Positions 2-6,230 of a stretch of DNA of 64,000 nt are shown here, in pieces. The position numbers were made by a program, and so were the translations under genes. Origin of the DNA: Dyadobacter sp. UC 10 (GTDB lineage Bacteria > Bacteroidota > Bacteroidia > Cytophagales > Spirosomataceae); assembly GCF_008369915.1 (NCBI RefSeq), contig NZ_VSRN01000001.1, positions 5,142,501 to 5,206,500 on the forward strand. Direction: 5' to 3'. Below the pieces are notes generated by a model, which was not told where the DNA came from, made no database searches, and saw only the letters and a program-made list of their open reading frames with translations. Numbering within the stretch: position 1 is the first letter of the stretch; every line of letters starts with the position of its first letter.

Positions 2-286
2 ATTACGCCGCTTTGCGGAAACGGGATGAGTATGGGAATGCACGCTTCTTTGCTGCTGGCCGGGGAAATAGCGAAATATTTACATAACCAGCAATCCCGC
101 GAAGCACTCAGCACCCACTATCACAGGGCCTGGGAGCAGGCATTTGGAAAACGCATCACAGCCGGATATTACCTTCAGAACCTGTTCGGGAAACGACTGA
201 CAACCGATCTCGCATTGCGTTTTCTGGACAAATCTCCTCTGCTTTTGAATAAACTTGTAGCCCTCACGCACGGTGAGAAATTCTAG
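2..286 (+). CDS. FAD-dependent oxidoreductase, C-terminal fragment (gene starts before the window)
   Basis: The open frame enters from the left edge; only the last 94 residues are present. The fragment begins with ITPLCGNGMSMGMHAS, which resembles the C-terminal FAD-contacting segment of geranylgeranyl-reductase-like flavin monooxygenases (P-x-x-G-x-G-x-x-x-A type), followed by a helical tail. Its stop codon overlaps the stop of the convergent lycopene cyclase gene by a few bases. Members of this family occur near carotenoid or type III polyketide genes in Bacteroidota, but which pathway this one serves cannot be told from the fragment. The family call is moderately safe; the substrate is unknown. 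Confidence 0.6.
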   Translation: MTPLCGNGMSMGMHASLLLAGEIAKYLHNQQSREALSTHYHRAWEQAFGKRITAGYYLQNLFGKRLTTDLALRFLDKSPLLLNKLVALTHGEKF

Positions 287-987
287 CTGATACGGGTTGT
301 GAGTGTGCGTCTTGCCAGCAATTTTTCAAACAAAAATGTATTTAAAAGCAGCATTAGCATACCGTAGAAAAGGTCTTCGACGGGTATGGTCAAAAAACGA
401 ACGCCTACATTTTCAGCATCGTTATACCACACAATCGGTTCGTCAAGCCCCGTTCCGGTCAGGATTCCGTTGACGATAATAAAGGGTATCAGCAGGAACA
501 TGTGTGAGTAAAGGAACAGGCTCAGCCACTTCGCTTTGACGTAAAACTTTAAATACAAAAGAAAAAGTGTGAGCAATACGGAAGTGGAAAGCGTGTAGGC
601 ACGGTCGTAAAACAGGACGGCTGCGGCTGCTGAAACAATAATGAAAAGCCACAAAACGAAATTCTCCGCCCTGATCCGGTAATCTGTGCTCAGAAACACA
701 CGGAATGTGTAATAGGTAAAAATGCAGGCGTAAGGAATGCAAATGAAAAAGAGGATTTCTTCAATGGGCAAATCCAGCAAATAGATTCCCAGAAGATACT
801 TGGGCGTAAATCCCCAGACACCGATTTTTGTAAAAAAACTATCCCAGACGATAAAGGGCAGCGCTGACAGCAGTATTGCCGGCCAGAGTACCGGCCAGTG
901 TTTACTCAGACCGATTTTAGGATGAAAGGAAGCGAGTATTGGGATTGAAATGGACGCCAGGTCTATCAATAGATAAAGTGAATTCAT
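283..987 (-). CDS. Lycopene beta-cyclase, fused CrtYc-CrtYd type
   Basis: A membrane protein of 234 residues with about six to seven hydrophobic segments. It holds the two repeated motifs of the heterodimeric/fused lycopene cyclase family: LPIEEILFF in the first half and IPVEDLFYG in the second, each followed by a hydrophobic helix. It should close both ends of lycopene to give beta-carotene in the inner membrane. I chose the ATG at 987 because it overlaps the crtZ stop as ATGA; a longer frame to 1050 would lie inside crtZ. It is the last gene of the carotenoid operon. The family differs from the soluble FAD cyclases CrtY/CrtL found in many proteobacteria. Confidence 0.88.
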   Translation of the reverse strand: MNSLYLLIDLASISIPILASFHPKIGLSKHWPVLWPAILLSALPFIVWDSFFTKIGVWGFTPKYLLGIYLLDLPIEEILFFICIPYACIFTYYTFRVFLSTDYRIRAENFVLWLFIIVSAAAAVLFYDRAYTLSTSVLLTLFLLYLKFYVKAKWLSLFLYSHMFLLIPFIIVNGILTGTGLDEPIVWYNDAENVGVRFLTIPVEDLFYGMLMLLLNTFLFEKLLARRTLTTRIS

Positions 988-1457
988 TTTGCGACCGTTT
1001 TTTTCGCTTCTCTGAAATATTTCAATGGTACCCAAAGCATCCCAAAACATTCACCTTCGTGCTTTTCTAAATGTTTGTGATGCATTTTGTGGGCCCGCCT
1101 GATCGCCCTTAAATAGACAGAATCCGTATTTCGGAAAAGCTTGAAACGCTGATGAATGAAGATGTCGTGGACAAAAAAGTAGGTAAAACCGTAAATGGTA
1201 ATGCCGAGACCGATCCAGAATAAATAGTTGAGATCCTGATTGAGGCCGATCGTCAGGAACAGAATGCCCGGAGTGGCGAATATGACAAAAAAGTAATCGT
1301 TTTTCTCAAAAAAATCGCCGTCGTCGCGCTGGTGGTGGTCGTGGTGTAAAAACCATAAAGCACCATGCATCAGGTATTTATGGGCAAGCCAGGCAATGCA
1401 TTCCATACCGATGAATGCTGCGAAGGTAATCACTGTATTTGTAATCCAGATCGGCAT
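984..1457 (-). CDS. crtZ: Beta-carotene hydroxylase CrtZ
   Basis: A 157-residue membrane di-iron hydroxylase of the fatty acid hydroxylase/sterol desaturase group. The histidine clusters are visible: HKYLMH, HHDHH, and a later HKMHH followed by H in HLEKH. It hydroxylates the beta rings of beta-carotene at C3 and C3', giving zeaxanthin. It lies 28 bases after idi and overlaps the cyclase start by 4 bases, so the two are probably translationally coupled. Length is normal for the bacterial CrtZ family. Confidence 0.92.
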   Translation of the reverse strand: MPIWITNTVITFAAFIGMECIAWLAHKYLMHGALWFLHHDHHQRDDGDFFEKNDYFFVIFATPGILFLTIGLNQDLNYLFWIGLGITIYGFTYFFVHDIFIHQRFKLFRNTDSVYLRAIRRAHKMHHKHLEKHEGECFGMLWVPLKYFREAKKTVAK

Positions 1458-1485: not shown

Positions 1486-2007
1486 CTATTTTTTAAGCCT
1501 GATTTTTTCTGAAACTTCGTCGAAGCAAATTTTAAGCCACTCCGTGTAGCGCGAGGGATTTTGAGAGAGGTCCTTTTTTAAGTCGCTCAACTTTATGTAT
1601 TTAAAGTCGCTCACTTCTTCGGTATTGATCAAAGGTTTCTCATCCGAAATGCCCCAGAAAACGTGGTCAAGTTCGTTTTCGGTCAATCCGTTTTCAAGGG
1701 CCGCGCGATATTGAAATGTGAAAAGAAAATCGAGCCCGGCCGTGATACCCATTTCTTCACGCAGCCGCCTTACTGCTGCATGGTGCGCCGACTCGTCGGG
1801 AAAAGGATGACTGCAGCAGGTATTCGACCACAATCCTTCCGAGTGATATTTTCCGAATGCGCGTCTCTGCAACAGCATTTCGCCGTTTGTATTAAAAATA
1901 AACACCGAAAAGGCACGGTGGAGCATTCCTTTCTGGTGTGCTTCCAGTTTGGGCATCAGGCCCACGGCTTCGTCTTCTTCATTTACCAGAACAACTTGAT
2001 CTTGCAT
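1486..2007 (-). CDS. idi: Isopentenyl-diphosphate delta-isomerase, type I
   Basis: A Nudix-fold protein of 173 residues that interconverts isopentenyl and dimethylallyl diphosphate, raising precursor supply for carotenoids. The type I catalytic cysteine motif NTCCSHP is at residues 62-68, the Nudix-like acidic segment RRLREEMG follows at about 80-87, and the second acidic motif ENELDHVFWG is near 110-119. It sits in the carotenoid operon between crtB (52-base gap) and crtZ (28-base gap), which supports a dedicated role in pigment synthesis. Confidence 0.93.
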   Translation of the reverse strand: MQDQVVLVNEEDEAVGLMPKLEAHQKGMLHRAFSVFIFNTNGEMLLQRRAFGKYHSEGLWSNTCCSHPFPDESAHHAAVRRLREEMGITAGLDFLFTFQYRAALENGLTENELDHVFWGISDEKPLINTEEVSDFKYIKLSDLKKDLSQNPSRYTEWLKICFDEVSEKIRLKK

Positions 2008-2059: not shown

Positions 2060-2896
2060 TCATAACAGGTCAAACTGGTGCCTCAAAAGTGAACGAAACA
2101 TCAGGCCCAGCTTGTCGTAATCAGGGATTCTGATCCTCGCATTCATGACTTTTTCGGCCGGAGTCTCCTTTATTCTCAGAAACAGTTTTTTATAATAATA
2201 ATAGGCCAGATAAACTCCGCGCCTCGCGCCGCCGGGTAATTTCCTGATGCCTATCAGCGCATTGTCAAAATCTTCCTGGATTTCGGCCTGAATAATTTCT
2301 TTGTCCCTGCGTGAAAAATGGTCAAAGTTCACTTCCGGGAAATAGGTACGCCCCAGGTCCTGGTAATCGGCTTTGAGGTCGCGCAAAAAGTTGACTTTTT
2401 GAAAAGCGGCACCCAGTTTCATAGCATACGGTTTCAATTCCTGGAATATCCGGTCGTCGCCTTCCGAAAACACACGGAGGCACATCAGGCCGACTACCTC
2501 AGCCGAGCCGAGTACATACTCATGAAACGTGTCCCGCGTGTGCTCTTTTTTCATCAGATCCATTTCCATACTTCTCAGAAACGTATCAATCAGCTCCCAT
2601 TCAATATGATATGCATTGACAACATGCTGGAAACTATTCAGGATCGGATTGATACTGATCCCTTTTCGGATCGCATCCACGGTGGCTTCCCTGATTTCGG
2701 CCATCATCGCCACTTTGTCGTAGTCATGAAAACTGTCGACGATTTCGTCGGCCAATCTCACAAAGCCGTAAATCGCATAGATCGGCGCGCGTAGTGCGGG
2801 TTTGAGAAAGTAGATACCCAGTGAAAAGGAGGTGCTGTAAAGCTGTGTGGTTTTCTTGCTGCACGATGCCGATAAGTTGTCATACAGGATTTTCAT
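2060..2896 (-). CDS. crtB: Phytoene/squalene synthase family protein, phytoene synthase CrtB
   Basis: A 278-residue all-helical prenyl synthase that condenses two geranylgeranyl diphosphates to phytoene. Both aspartate-rich motifs are present: ADEIVDSFHDY near residue 50 and RDLKADYQDLGRTYFP in the second half. It starts 6 bases after crtI, as expected for the classic crtI-crtB pair. A squalene or diapophytoene synthase role is possible from sequence alone, but the neighbours crtI, crtZ and lycopene cyclase make phytoene the likely product. Confidence 0.92.
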   Translation of the reverse strand: MKILYDNLSASCSKKTTQLYSTSFSLGIYFLKPALRAPIYAIYGFVRLADEIVDSFHDYDKVAMMAEIREATVDAIRKGISINPILNSFQHVVNAYHIEWELIDTFLRSMEMDLMKKEHTRDTFHEYVLGSAEVVGLMCLRVFSEGDDRIFQELKPYAMKLGAAFQKVNFLRDLKADYQDLGRTYFPEVNFDHFSRRDKEIIQAEIQEDFDNALIGIRKLPGGARRGVYLAYYYYKKLFLRIKETPAEKVMNARIRIPDYDKLGLMFRSLLRHQFDLL

Positions 2897-2902
2897 AGTG
2901 TA

Positions 2903-4405
2903 TCAGTTTAGGGATTTCAACAGTTCGTTGGCGGCAATCTGGCCGGAAATAATCGCCGGAGGTACGCCCGGACCCGGTACCGTCAGTTGCCCGGCGTAAA
3001 AGAGGTTGGTGACCTTGGTACTTTTCATTTTTGGTTTAAAAATGGCTGTCTGCATCAGCGTATTGGCCAACCCGTAAGCATTGCCTTTGTAAGCATTGTA
3101 GTCACCCTTGAAATCGGACACGGAATAGCTCCTTTTAAATATGATATGTTCTCTGACGGGCACACCTGCAAATTTTTCGAGCCTGTCCATCAAAAGCGTG
3201 AAATATCTTTCTCTGATGGCCTCGGGGTCTTCCAGCCCGGTCGCGACAGGCATGAGCACAAATAGGTTTTCGCAACCCTCAGGGGCAACAGAAGGGTCGG
3301 TTTTAGATGGGCAGCAAACGTAAAAAAGCGGTTTTGTCGGCCATTTTTTGTCTTTATAAATCTCCACGGCGTGTTGCCCGAAATCTTCATCAAAAAACAG
3401 GTTATGGTGCCGGAGCTTGTCAACCTTTCTGCTTATACCCAAATAAAATAACAGGCAGGAGGGAGCGAACGTCCGGCTTTCCCAGTAGGAGGCCGGGTAC
3501 ATTTGATATTCCGGGTCCAATAGAGTTGATTCAATATGTTGGTAATCAGCACTTCCCACTACCGCGTCGACGTTTTGTAACATGCCGTTGGCGCGTATTT
3601 GCCGGATTGTGCCGTCTGAAATTTCGAGCTTTTCGATGCGTTGGCCGGTGCGAAATGTCACACCCTCGCTTTCTGCAATCTGCTGGAATGCTTCGGCCAC
3701 TTTGCCAAAGCCGCCCATCGGGTAATAAGTGCCCTGTTTTAATCCCGAGAAGTTCATCAGGCTGTATAATGCGGGTGTGTCGCGCGGCATTGCGCCCAGG
3801 AACAGGACCGGGAATTCGATCAATGCCAGCAGGCGCGGATCGCGGAAGTATTGTCGCGCATGTGATGAAAATGAGGTGAATAGCTGAATTTTCAGTGCTT
3901 TTTGCAGGAGTCCGAGACTGAAGAACTCGGTGAAGGAATGCCCTGGTTTGTAAACCATATCCTGCATTCCGACTTCATATTTGAACTCACCTTCTGCAAT
4001 AAACTTTCGGAGCTTCGCAGCACTTCCGGGTTCCATGCTTTCGAAAAGGGCGCATATTTCTTCAAAATCTCCGGGAATATCGATGAGCTCCGCGTTGCCG
4101 AATATCACTGCAAATCCGGGGTCCAGTTTTTTCAGATCGTAGAAATCAGCGGATGTTCTGCCAAATTTTTGAAAAAAGCGCTCGTAAACATCGGGCATCC
4201 AATACCAGCTTGGGCCCATATCAAATACAAATCCGCCCTCCGAAAAAGTGCGCGCGCGCCCTCCTGTCATTTCGTTTTTTTCGAAAACAGTCACATTGTT
4301 ACCTGCCTTTGCCAGCAGTGCCGCCGCCGCCATGCCGGAAAATCCCGATCCGATCACGGCGATTTTCCGCGCCGGGGTATTTGTATTTTGACCCTTATTC
4401 TGCAT
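2903..4405 (-). CDS. crtI: Phytoene desaturase CrtI
   Basis: A 500-residue FAD-dependent desaturase that converts phytoene to lycopene. The N-terminal dinucleotide motif VIGSGFSGMAAA and the following EKNEMTGGRARTF are intact, and the C-terminal signature NLFYAGQLTVPGPGVPPAI matches the CrtI FAD-binding end. Its start overlaps the end of the MerR/B12 regulator gene by 11 bases, so regulator and desaturase are expected on one transcript. Length is typical for CrtI. Confidence 0.94.
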   Translation of the reverse strand: MQNKGQNTNTPARKIAVIGSGFSGMAAAALLAKAGNNVTVFEKNEMTGGRARTFSEGGFVFDMGPSWYWMPDVYERFFQKFGRTSADFYDLKKLDPGFAVIFGNAELIDIPGDFEEICALFESMEPGSAAKLRKFIAEGEFKYEVGMQDMVYKPGHSFTEFFSLGLLQKALKIQLFTSFSSHARQYFRDPRLLALIEFPVLFLGAMPRDTPALYSLMNFSGLKQGTYYPMGGFGKVAEAFQQIAESEGVTFRTGQRIEKLEISDGTIRQIRANGMLQNVDAVVGSADYQHIESTLLDPEYQMYPASYWESRTFAPSCLLFYLGISRKVDKLRHHNLFFDEDFGQHAVEIYKDKKWPTKPLFYVCCPSKTDPSVAPEGCENLFVLMPVATGLEDPEAIRERYFTLLMDRLEKFAGVPVREHIIFKRSYSVSDFKGDYNAYKGNAYGLANTLMQTAIFKPKMKSTKVTNLFYAGQLTVPGPGVPPAIISGQIAANELLKSLN

Positions 4406-5282
4406 CGTTCAGCATTTCAATCAGTTTATCAATTGATCCGATTTGCGTAATCGGGTATTCAGAAATTTTTTTGCGCATGTCCGGATTGCCGCAGGAAAGG
4501 CAAAGCATCGAATCTCCAAAATCGGTGATCAGCTTGCGCAACATATCATCCAGCTGGTCATGATTTCCGATTATAAATGAATATATATGTGAAGGTCTGC
4601 ATTGCTTCACGACATGTGCCAGGTCGCTGTGCGGCACGCGCGCGCCGAGATATATTACGTTTTGTCCGCGCTGCCGGATCAAATAATTCGCAAATAACAA
4701 GCCGATTTCATGGTCCTCCTGTTCGTTCAGATACAGCAGCCATTTTTGAGAGGAATTTTCCGGAAGCGGGAGCGAATCGATTGCAGCAAACAGTTTCTGG
4801 CGGACCAGGTTCGATAAAAAATGTTCCTGAGAAGGAAGCAGGTCGTCCTTTACCCACAGAAGCCCGGTTCTGACAAGCAGCGGGTAGATAACTTTTTCAT
4901 ATGTTTTTTTGATTCCAAATTTTTTCACCGCATTGCCGAATGCTTCTTCGAACATGGCTGCGTCGAATGTTGCAGTAGCAATCAATGCCTGGTTTACGAT
5001 CGCCTCAACGTGGTTATCGCTCTGGAAGGAGCCCGCTATAACCTTATCGATTTCCTCAGCCATCTGCCTCTTGTTAAGCTGGCTGATACGCGAAATCTTC
5101 ATGCCCTGGTTCAGCAACGTGCAGACATTCAGTAGTTTCTTCAGTTGCTCGTCATCATAATACCTGATATTCGTGTCAGTCCTCCCGGGCGTAAGCAGGC
5201 CGTAGCGTTGCTCCCATATACGAATGGTGTGCGCCTTCATGTTGCTGATACGTTCCAGGTCTTTGATAGAATATGACGACAT
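4395..5282 (-). CDS. MerR-family regulator with cobalamin-binding domain, CarH/LitR-like
   Basis: A 295-residue transcription factor and first gene of the carotenoid operon. Residues 1-75 are a MerR winged helix (RIWEQRYGLL, then RYYDDEQL). The rest matches a B12-binding region: a helical cap with W143 and E153-H154, which fits the Wx9EH motif of the light sensor CarH, then E189-x-H191-x-x-G194, where His191 would be the lower axial cobalt ligand, and a Rossmann-like LGARVPHSDL segment. CarH proteins bind adenosylcobalamin, repress carotenoid genes in the dark and release DNA in light. The residue after Trp143 is Val, not the His seen next to the Trp in Thermus CarH. It probably represses itself and the operon; light response is inference. 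Confidence 0.85.
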   Translation of the reverse strand: MSSYSIKDLERISNMKAHTIRIWEQRYGLLTPGRTDTNIRYYDDEQLKKLLNVCTLLNQGMKISRISQLNKRQMAEEIDKVIAGSFQSDNHVEAIVNQALIATATFDAAMFEEAFGNAVKKFGIKKTYEKVIYPLLVRTGLLWVKDDLLPSQEHFLSNLVRQKLFAAIDSLPLPENSSQKWLLYLNEQEDHEIGLLFANYLIRQRGQNVIYLGARVPHSDLAHVVKQCRPSHIYSFIIGNHDQLDDMLRKLITDFGDSMLCLSCGNPDMRKKISEYPITQIGSIDKLIEMLNDAE

Positions 5283-5317
5283 TTTGTTTAACTTTTTTTA
5301 AAATTACTTAAACAAAA
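5282..5317. promoter_or_regulatory. Perfect 10-bp inverted repeat at the carotenoid operon start, candidate operator
   Basis: TTTTGTTTAA at 5282-5291 is the exact reverse complement of TTAAACAAAA at 5308-5317, with a 16-base spacer. The left arm touches the A of the regulator start codon. The half-site centres are about 26 bases apart. MerR/CarH-family repressors bind paired half-sites at the promoter of the operon they lead, so this is the obvious candidate for autoregulation. The symmetry is seen directly; the protein partner is inferred. Confidence 0.5.
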
Positions 5318-5360
5318 ACTTTTTCATAATTATTTGCGAAAAAATTAAATTCTTCTGCTA

Positions 5361-5402
5361 TTGATATTTAAAATATCTTATATTTGGTTTCTTAAATATC
5401 AA
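5361..5402 (+). promoter_or_regulatory. 11-bp inverted repeat flanking a -7 element, operator of the XRE/S24 gene
   Basis: TTGATATTTAA at 5361-5371 is the exact reverse complement of TTAAATATCAA at 5392-5402. Inside lies a further GATATTT-A-AAATATC palindrome (5363-5377). TATATTTG at 5379-5386, which fits the Bacteroidota -7 consensus TAnnTTTG, lies between the arms, so a bound repressor would hide the promoter. No good -33 TTG at normal spacing is seen. Likely autoregulatory. Confidence 0.45.
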
Positions 5403-5411
5403 TCGTTCGTT

Positions 5412-6230
5412 ATGAAAACTCAGGAGATTTTTTGGTCGGTTAACATTAAGTTCTTACGTCTGCGTCAAAAATTGAGCCAGGAGGCCTTGGCGGAAAAGTT
5501 GGGGATCAGCAGGGTGAAGCTGAATGCGCATGAAAGCGGGCGCACGGCCAATCCGACGATCGATGACCTGATCAATTTTTCCGAGTTTTTCCGCATGAGC
5601 ATTGACAGTATCCTGAAAATAGACCTTACTAAGCTCTCCGGTCAGAAAATAAGGGACCTGGAAAAAGGTAGTGAGCTATTTATGAAAGGCGACCAGATTC
5701 GCGTCCTGGCGATCACGGTCGATAAGGAAGAGCAGGAAAACATCGAATATGTTCCGGTCCACGCCAAAGCAGGTTACCGGTCAGGTTATGCAGACCCTGA
5801 ATTTTTGGCGACATTACCGAGGTTCAATTTGCCCACCGTTCCCAGGAACGGAACGTTCAGGATGTTCCCTACTGTGGGAGATTCGATGCTGCCAGTGCCG
5901 GAAGGCAGCGACATTATCACGCGTTATGTTCAGGACTGGACCGCCATCAAGCCGGAAACCCCTTGTATCGTTATATTGAAAGGTGACCAGGATTTTGTTT
6001 TCAAACAGGTTACTATCAATAAGGATGGAACCGTGTTGCTGCAATCTTTCAACAAACAGTATTTCGCGTACACAGTGCCAATCACGGATGTAATCGAATT
6101 TTGGGAATACTATAGTTTCCACAGCAAGCAGCTTCCGGAGCCGCAGTCGGATATGCAGCAGCTCATGCGGATGTTACAGGATATGCAGAATGAAATCAAG
6201 GAAATAAAAGGTAAAGCTGTATACAAATAA
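5412..6230 (+). CDS. XRE-family transcriptional regulator with S24 (LexA-like) peptidase domain
   Basis: A 272-residue protein with an N-terminal helix-turn-helix (about residues 10-60, LSQEALAEKLGISRVKLNAH) and a C-terminal S24 domain. The catalytic serine lies in VGDSMLPV and the candidate lysine in DFVFKQV; an Ala-Gly pair in HAKAGYRSGY sits where LexA-type repressors self-cleave. The ATG at 5412 is preferred to an upstream TTG at 5361 because the latter lies in the operator. Divergent from the carotenoid operon with a shared 129-base intergenic region. Likely a self-cleaving or stress-responsive repressor; targets beyond its own promoter are unknown. Confidence 0.85.
   Translation: MKTQEIFWSVNIKFLRLRQKLSQEALAEKLGISRVKLNAHESGRTANPTIDDLINFSEFFRMSIDSILKIDLTKLSGQKIRDLEKGSELFMKGDQIRVLAITVDKEEQENIEYVPVHAKAGYRSGYADPEFLATLPRFNLPTVPRNGTFRMFPTVGDSMLPVPEGSDIITRYVQDWTAIKPETPCIVILKGDQDFVFKQVTINKDGTVLLQSFNKQYFAYTVPITDVIEFWEYYSFHSKQLPEPQSDMQQLMRMLQDMQNEIKEIKGKAVYK

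Follow-up and report, generated by a model that had tools for sequence, protein, structure and literature searches.

Does Dyadobacter sp. UC 10 control its carotenoid genes through a vitamin B12-dependent photoreceptor? The question is raised by a gene, merR, at the head of a carotenoid operon in a 64,000-nucleotide (nt) stretch of its genome (NZ_VSRN01000001.1, 5,142,501-5,206,500), which we call the window and to which all feature coordinates refer. The initial annotation had described the product as a CarH-like B12 photoreceptor leading such an operon. That description is borne out as far as sequence and predicted fold are concerned, and light sensing itself we infer. We consider it likely that MerR is an adenosylcobalamin (AdoCbl)-binding, light-released repressor of its own carotenoid operon that represents a Bacteroidota lineage of the CarH/LitR kind. 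The key residues, a fold match, a DNA dyad at the merR start, the operon, the cofactor genes and the co-occurrence of dyad and regulator among genomes were all obtained by computation here.

Domains and predicted cobalamin pocket of the regulator

4395-5282, minus strand: merR, CarH-like MerR regulator of 295 amino acids (open reading frame (ORF), Pfam, alignments and model); helix-turn-helix (HTH) domain at 4-69, B12-binding_2 four-helix domain at about 101-164, C-terminal part Rossmann-like

The ORF proposed at this position is real: the plus-strand reading is interrupted by stops, the minus-strand reading is intact, and its product matches the Pfam models MerR_1, MerR and B12-binding_2, all over cut-off. 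The protein has the three-part fold of the CarH/LitR kind, with the HTH and four-helix parts called by Pfam and the Rossmann part by an AlphaFold2 model and its structural match in VIA-align. Its closest relative of solved structure is the CarH of Thermus thermophilus (TtCarH; E about 1e-15), whose W131, E141-H142 and H177 align with W143, E153-H154 and H191 of MerR. These residues stand where the initial annotation placed them, so that the Wx9EH cap motif is intact (W143, E153-H154) and the axial-His motif D/ExHxxG is present as E189-D-H191-E-I-G194. The SignatureFinder elements GxxW, EH and GxxxP (PMC11796333) are found as G140-W143, E153-H154 and G213-P217. In the recognition helix, R21, W23, E24, R26 and Y27 are common to MerR and TtCarH.

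Structure prediction had been suggested as a check on the annotation, and the fold of the resulting protein model matches the B12 domains of CarH and of CtMerR, the homologue from Chloracidobacterium thermophilum. The model, made with 51 aligned proteins, has a mean predicted local distance difference test score of 92.8 and a predicted template modelling score of 0.83. Its best VIA-align match is CtMerR (8jbt; Z 17.9, root-mean-square deviation (rmsd) 3.1 over 214 residues), TtCarH (5c8d) gives Z 17.4 with rmsd 2.8 over 194 residues, and Foldseek ranks TtCarH at the top. Photocobilins, which are also B12 photoreceptors, match at Z 17.4, and methionine synthase and other corrinoid proteins at Z 13.5-14.9. 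A full-length comparison with TtCarH (5c8e) gives an rmsd of about 13, with the HTH domain placed differently.

Conservation across Bacteroidota

MerR homologues occur in 114 of the 121 genomes drawn from the window's family, its own included. Among 296 genomes drawn from the phylum, 58 carry a strong homologue (best E < 1e-39), where five genomes with matches at about 1e-20 to 1e-23 and many with weaker or HTH-only matches were counted as being without one. The named relatives with 57-68% identity to MerR are Dyadobacter. For residue counts we translated 139 loci, picked by likeness to MerR and so not a random sample, which yielded 134 distinct proteins including MerR itself; identical proteins were dropped before a tree was built.

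The pocket is nearly invariant in this set. W143, H154, G213 and P217 are kept in all 134 proteins and G140, E153 and H191 in 133 each, with L076 (Asp) as the sole exception at E153. The only protein with Asn for the axial His is L088 of Roseivirga sp. E12, which has no crt genes within 8 kb; this natural loss of the cobalt ligand is usable for comparison.

The residue after the Trp behaves differently. TtCarH carries its light-state ligand, H132, at this position, which is Val144 in MerR and is His in none of the 134 proteins (Gln 38, Val 20, Leu 15, Thr 13, Ile 11, Arg 9, Ser 8, Met 6, Ala 5, Gly 5, Asn 2, Phe 1, Pro 1). The initial annotation had singled out the Val as a reason why the photochemistry might differ. 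The residue is correct, the caveat is not specific to this protein, and Val alone does not exclude a photoresponse, because CtMerR has Arg at this position and still goes from tetramer to monomer on illumination (PMC11796333). That the light-state His is absent throughout the set while the other pocket residues stay fixed is not ordinary, and it supplies natural test cases for CarH-type switching without bis-His ligation.

A further position of interest is the Arg-Asp dimer bridge of TtCarH, R176-D201 (PMC9304148). It aligns with D190-R215 of MerR, where an oppositely charged pair is kept with its charges swapped, and the Thermus salt bridge thus appears in charge-swapped form. Positions 190 and 215 hold an acid and a base in 24 of the 134 proteins, an acid alone in one (L066), a base alone in none and neither in 109. 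All 24 pairs sit in one clade, with the variants D-R, D-K and E-R staying matched, and because of this confinement the covariation amounts to few events.

An inverted dyad at the merR start

5284-5315, minus strand: candidate operator dyad TTGTTTAA-N16-TTAAACAA, one base before the merR start codon
5299-5306, minus strand: -7-like element TAATTTTA in the operator spacer (TAnnTTTG-like in relatives), part of a putative promoter

The exact dyad has a single copy in the 6.9-Mb genome, at merR. Matches with 2-3 mismatches are at control level (73 for the forward and 92 for the reversed pattern), so we claim no further targets in this genome, whose two photolyase genes have no exact dyad. Upstream of the -7-like element no clear -33 element is seen.

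Relatives share the site. Near-identical upstream regions were dropped before motifs were counted, which reduced 139 regions to 119 or 113, depending on the count, and those of MerR's own clade, called A below, from 37 to 25. TGTTTAA occurs in 68 of 119 regions versus 14.1 in shuffles. Among 113 promoters, half-site pairs with up to 2 mismatches number 32 at spacing 16 versus 0-10 at the other spacings from 4 to 30. With up to 3 mismatches, spacing 16 is found in 41 of the promoters, as compared with 53 of 2040 control windows taken at those loci; the 33 promoters at spacing 17 are what one expects when one half slides by one base. Some sites have both halves changed together, as in TTGTCTAA with TTAGACAA (L129, L054). 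Spacers of 5-6 nt (10 promoters each) were considered and rejected; in most of them a half-site is matched with an AT-rich stretch, in many cases within the long dyad.

When 80 named loci (1.21 Mb) are searched with up to 1 mismatch, spacing 16 accounts for 75 sites, against 0-3 for any other spacing from 8 to 27 and none in one shuffle of the loci. Within 150 nt before merR lie 23 of the 75, between the merR end and 400 nt after it 43, inside merR one and elsewhere eight. L069 has a second perfect dyad within the merR coding region, at +219 from the merR start. A dyad before crtZ, where crtZ precedes merR (13 loci), was discarded as a candidate: none has one at spacing 16 with up to 2 mismatches, and L104 has one at spacing 17 with 2 mismatches. 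In such loci the dyad often follows merR instead.

The half-site TTAAACA includes the TnnACA of CarH (PMC9304148), arranged here as an inverted pair with a 16-nt spacer. Of the tandem 11-bp TnnACA direct repeats that mark characterised CarH operators, only degenerate repeats are found, at dyad positions 4, 15 and 26 in 11-bp register with the first two degenerate, and the operator could also be read as a mix of inverted dyad and 11-bp repeats. In clade A, position 10 of the spacer is T in 23 of 23 sites and position 11 is A in 18 of 23, a pattern that fits the flavobacterial -7 box consensus TAnnTTTG (PMC3587595). Repression is the natural interpretation of this arrangement, in which a protein bound to both halves would lie over the -7 region.

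Two arrangements of regulator and operator

In a FastTree phylogeny whose outgroup comprised the Thermus protein and two from betaproteobacteria, MerR belongs to a clade of 37 members (clade A, support 0.93). All remaining proteins were pooled as 'B', which is not one well-supported clade. The clade A order is operator-merR-crtI-crtB, or with crtB next, and the dyad is found with up to 2 mismatches in 31 of the 37 members and in 19 of the 25 deduplicated loci versus a mean of 0.09 in shuffles. A gene for an extracytoplasmic function (ECF) sigma factor lies within 800 nt after merR at 29 of 55 pooled 'B' loci (for example L100) versus none of 25 in clade A, and the dyad in 'B' often sits between the two genes. 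From gene order, then, the loci read as two wirings, operator-merR-crt as in the window and merR-operator-ECF sigma-crt. Dyadobacter is likely to have gained its A-type operon horizontally, because the 22 proteins from other genera of its family (L011-L030, L041, L046) all fall outside clade A.

Genes behind the dyad across the phylum

The exact dyad is present in 37 of the 296 phylum genomes, namely 37 of the 58 with a strong MerR homologue and none of the 238 others (Fisher p 2e-32, ignoring relatedness). There are 79 exact dyads by hand sum versus 6 for the reversed pattern. At 66 of the 79 we examined the genes that lie up to about 1.9 kb to either side and are directed away from the dyad; one site can enter the tally twice, and these very sites supplied the query proteins. 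The genes found encode fasciclin (18), CrtI (10), short-chain dehydrogenase (10), ECF sigma (7), SRPBCC-like (5), photolyase (5), NAD-binding DUF2867 (4), PTPS (3), rhodopsin (3), TetR-like (3), flavin reductase (3), CHRD-like (2), Blh (2), MerR (2) and epimerase with DUF1731 (2) proteins, and 7 sites had none. With one representative each, Pfam confirms fasciclin, sigma factor, rhodopsin, beta-carotene dioxygenase, PTPS, photolyase, flavin reductase, DUF2867 and epimerase. Pfam gives no match for the SRPBCC-like protein, which was named by eye, as were the TetR, CHRD and short-chain dehydrogenase proteins.

Fasciclin-domain genes are the commonest class, at 18 of 66 sites (L166, L171, L172, L182 and 14 more), and a fasciclin gene also adjoins the betaproteobacterial MerR homologue of L155.

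All 10 rhodopsin genes of the 58 genomes were tested. Six have the dyad with up to 2 mismatches, three of them outside the exact-site list, and other spacings give 0-2 of 10. The dyad precedes proteorhodopsin in L165, L190, L225, L236, L237 and L239 (0-2 mismatches), and in L190 and L225 it lies between the rhodopsin gene and a divergent beta-carotene dioxygenase gene. Photolyase was rejected as a general direct target: a dyad lies within 350 nt upstream at one of 30 loci examined from a longer list, and photolyase stands behind 5 of 66 sites within 1.9 kb, so it would be a target in some genomes only. The presence of the dyad before proteorhodopsin, photolyase and pterin genes is an independent sign of a light regulon.

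The chances seem to us evenly balanced that these sites belong to a Bacteroidota-wide B12 light regulon, with one His-less MerR lineage, an inverted TnnACA dyad and two wirings. In some members this regulon would make proteorhodopsin and the retinal-forming dioxygenase, photolyase operons and fasciclin lipoproteins light-dependent, and B12 supply would gate photoheterotrophy. If so, pigments in a major phylum, and rhodopsin phototrophy in some of its members, would be under hidden control by B12 availability. The AT-rich dyad would then be a candidate optogenetic operator for use in Bacteroidota. A named regulator and a countable DNA site make these questions directly testable.

The carotenoid operon, cofactor genes and divergent neighbour

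2903-4405, minus strand: crtI, phytoene desaturase (NF058655 704 bits, TIGR02734 413 bits), with an 11-nt overlap with the merR end
2060-2896, minus strand: crtB-like phytoene synthase (SQS_PSY; ORF and Pfam)
1486-2007, minus strand: idi, isopentenyl-diphosphate isomerase (NCBIfam over cut-off)
984-1457, minus strand: crtZ-like hydroxylase (named by position and His-rich look)
283-987, minus strand: lycopene cyclase of the CarR_dom type (profile matches)
5412-6230, plus strand: divergent XRE-type regulator, adjoining merR

As the initial annotation had it, merR leads a carotenoid operon, in the order merR-crtI-crtB-idi-crtZ-cyclase on one strand with short gaps or overlaps. The likely cyclase start is Met22 of the listed ORF, with its ATG at 987 overlapping the crtZ stop. 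The claim that this operon makes zeaxanthin holds as to the presence of carotenoid genes and is less firm as to the product, because the crtZ-like ORF has no family match and the desaturase is named as a bifunctional 3,4-desaturase. No Pfam or NCBIfam model matched the former at E 0.001; we take it to be CrtZ from its position and His-rich look. NCBIfam labels the latter bifunctional phytoene/3,4-desaturase (CrtID; 704 bits, cut-off 640), and by this label the enzyme may add 3,4-didehydro products, the pigment then being perhaps other than plain zeaxanthin. At the 80 named loci, with flanks of up to 8 kb and less on small contigs, the merR strand carries crtI in 47, crtB in 52, idi in 36, crtZ in 38 and the cyclase in 32.

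The genome encodes two PduO-type corrinoid adenosyltransferases, one of them in a row with BtuF-, CobU- and CobT-like ORFs (read by eye), as well as two methylmalonyl-CoA mutase ORFs and one B12-binding ORF of 1302 amino acids, the size of MetH. With these genes, some of them salvage-type cobalamin ORFs, the bacterium can probably make AdoCbl from salvaged corrinoid.

Ahead of the XRE-type gene, at 5358-5405, there is an AT-rich inverted repeat of the TTGATATTT...AATATCAA type (by eye), perhaps that regulator's own operator.

Proposed mechanism and alternatives

We infer cobalamin binding, photolysis, the sign of control, the change of oligomer and the light-state ligand, and envisage them as follows. 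In the dark, AdoCbl would be bound base-off on His191, and Trp143 and Glu153 would hold its adenosyl group. The holoprotein would assemble through a head-to-tail dimer with the D190-R215 bridge, clamp the dyad at 5284-5315, cover the -7 element and silence the genes from merR to the cyclase. Green or blue light would cleave the Co-C bond, the adenosyl group would be lost, the assembly would dissociate and the operon would be transcribed. A bis-His light state through the Thermus position is impossible because Val144 stands there, and for this reason the light state is likely to be the one reported for CtMerR, in which water or hydroxide acts together with Glu153.

Several observations weigh against light-released repression by MerR. 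Pfam does not call a Rossmann B12-binding domain in the protein, which scores 90.2 bits against the NCBIfam CarH equivalog NF052513, far below the curated cut-off of 400 bits. In the SignatureFinder element GxxH before the axial His (PMC11796333), Q188 replaces a Gly that is present in 76 of the 134 proteins, and the Rossmann GG motif is CG (judged by eye). Val144 does bear on the mechanism, given that TtCarH H132A is mostly tetrameric in the light, an older report having had it disassembling (PMC10442372). At the level of DNA, sites with up to 1 mismatch are missing from 20 of the 55 pooled 'B' loci and 5 of the 25 clade A loci, 21 of the 58 strong-homologue genomes have no exact dyad, and the co-occurrence of the two is uncorrected for kinship. 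The scarcity of dyads before photolyase genes counts on the same side, as does a report that terms proteorhodopsin expression constitutive in Dokdonia PRO95, which is relevant only if PRO95 carries MerR.

Some of these observations are what one would expect of a B12-binding, light-independent repressor like Myxococcus CarA, with the operon controlled by another signal or an antirepressor; we regard this as rather unlikely. The light-state His is missing in all 134 proteins, MerR deviates from GxxH and from one of the two glycines of GG, and CarA itself retains a B12 motif without needing B12 (PMC9304148). However, according to the same source CarA is without the Trp of Wx9EH, which is kept here in 134 of 134 proteins, so that the loss marking the B12-independent regulator is not found in MerR with its Trp143. 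CtMerR is light-responsive despite having no His (PMC11796333), and the dyad precedes rhodopsin and some photolyase genes in relatives.

We think it improbable that MerR senses AdoCbl supply or redox state, with repression by the AdoCbl-bound protein relieved when AdoCbl runs short or becomes oxidised. The same pocket would suffice for this, and the salvage-type cobalamin ORFs suggest a variable AdoCbl supply, but in its upper pocket MerR has the Trp and EH by which characterised relatives that respond to light are marked, the genes behind the dyad are light-related with no B12 gene recognised among 66 sites, and the only exact dyad of the genome is at merR, away from the adenosyltransferases. 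Binding of the dyad by the XRE-type regulator or a sigma factor rather than by MerR is very improbable: the XRE gene shares a 129-nt intergenic region with the dyad and adjoins merR in 16 of 16 Dyadobacter loci, but tblastn finds XRE homologues at none of the remaining 123 loci (139 in all), many of them dyad-bearing, the half-site contains CarH's TnnACA, and exact dyads are confined to genomes with a strong MerR homologue.

Comparison with known systems

One of the closest known systems is Thermus CarH/LitR (5c8d, 3whp), which shares the HTH, four-helix and Rossmann B12 domains, the aligned W131/E141-H142/H177 and a charged pair at the dimer-bridge positions, and whose gene stands beside a phytoene-synthase-family gene and a photolyase gene. 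MerR differs from it in overall sequence (23% identity), in Val144 for His132, in the swapped bridge charges and in the operator, an inverted TnnACA pair with a 16-nt spacer in place of tandem 11-bp repeats. CtMerR (8jbs/8jbt), the best structural match, also has no His after the Trp (Arg instead), but is only 15% identical over the fold alignment and has the GxxH that MerR does not.

For the wiring of the pooled 'B' loci, Streptomyces LitR-LitS presumably offers a likeness to the merR-ECF sigma arrangement; clade A is unlike it in having no sigma gene after merR (0 of 25).

The myxobacterial CarH and CarA proteins resemble MerR in Wx9EH, as found in CarH, in a Glu/Asp-Arg pair that replaces Arg-Asp, in an RxWExRY-like recognition helix and in control of a crt promoter, and differ in the His after the Trp, present in many, and in operators of 11-bp direct repeats (PMC9304148). 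The M. xanthus CarA operator was first proposed to consist of inverted repeats and was later reread as direct repeats (PMC9304148), so the idea of inverted repeats has a forerunner in this family.

In the literature, largely what is freely accessible, we found no account of the regulator's function or of the dyad in Bacteroidota. A merR gene beside crt genes in this phylum is in print as annotation (PMC11855829, PMC8683446), with rpoE also included in the cluster of PMC8683446, and Bacteroidota members are possibly among the 1561 signature-bearing sequences of SignatureFinder (PMC11796333). MerR of the window is a variant of the CarH/LitR kind and not CarH in the strict sense. As one more carotenoid-linked B12 MerR it is ordinary; out of the ordinary, along with the missing light-state His, are its inverted operator, the existence of two wirings and the apparent targeting of rhodopsin genes in relatives.

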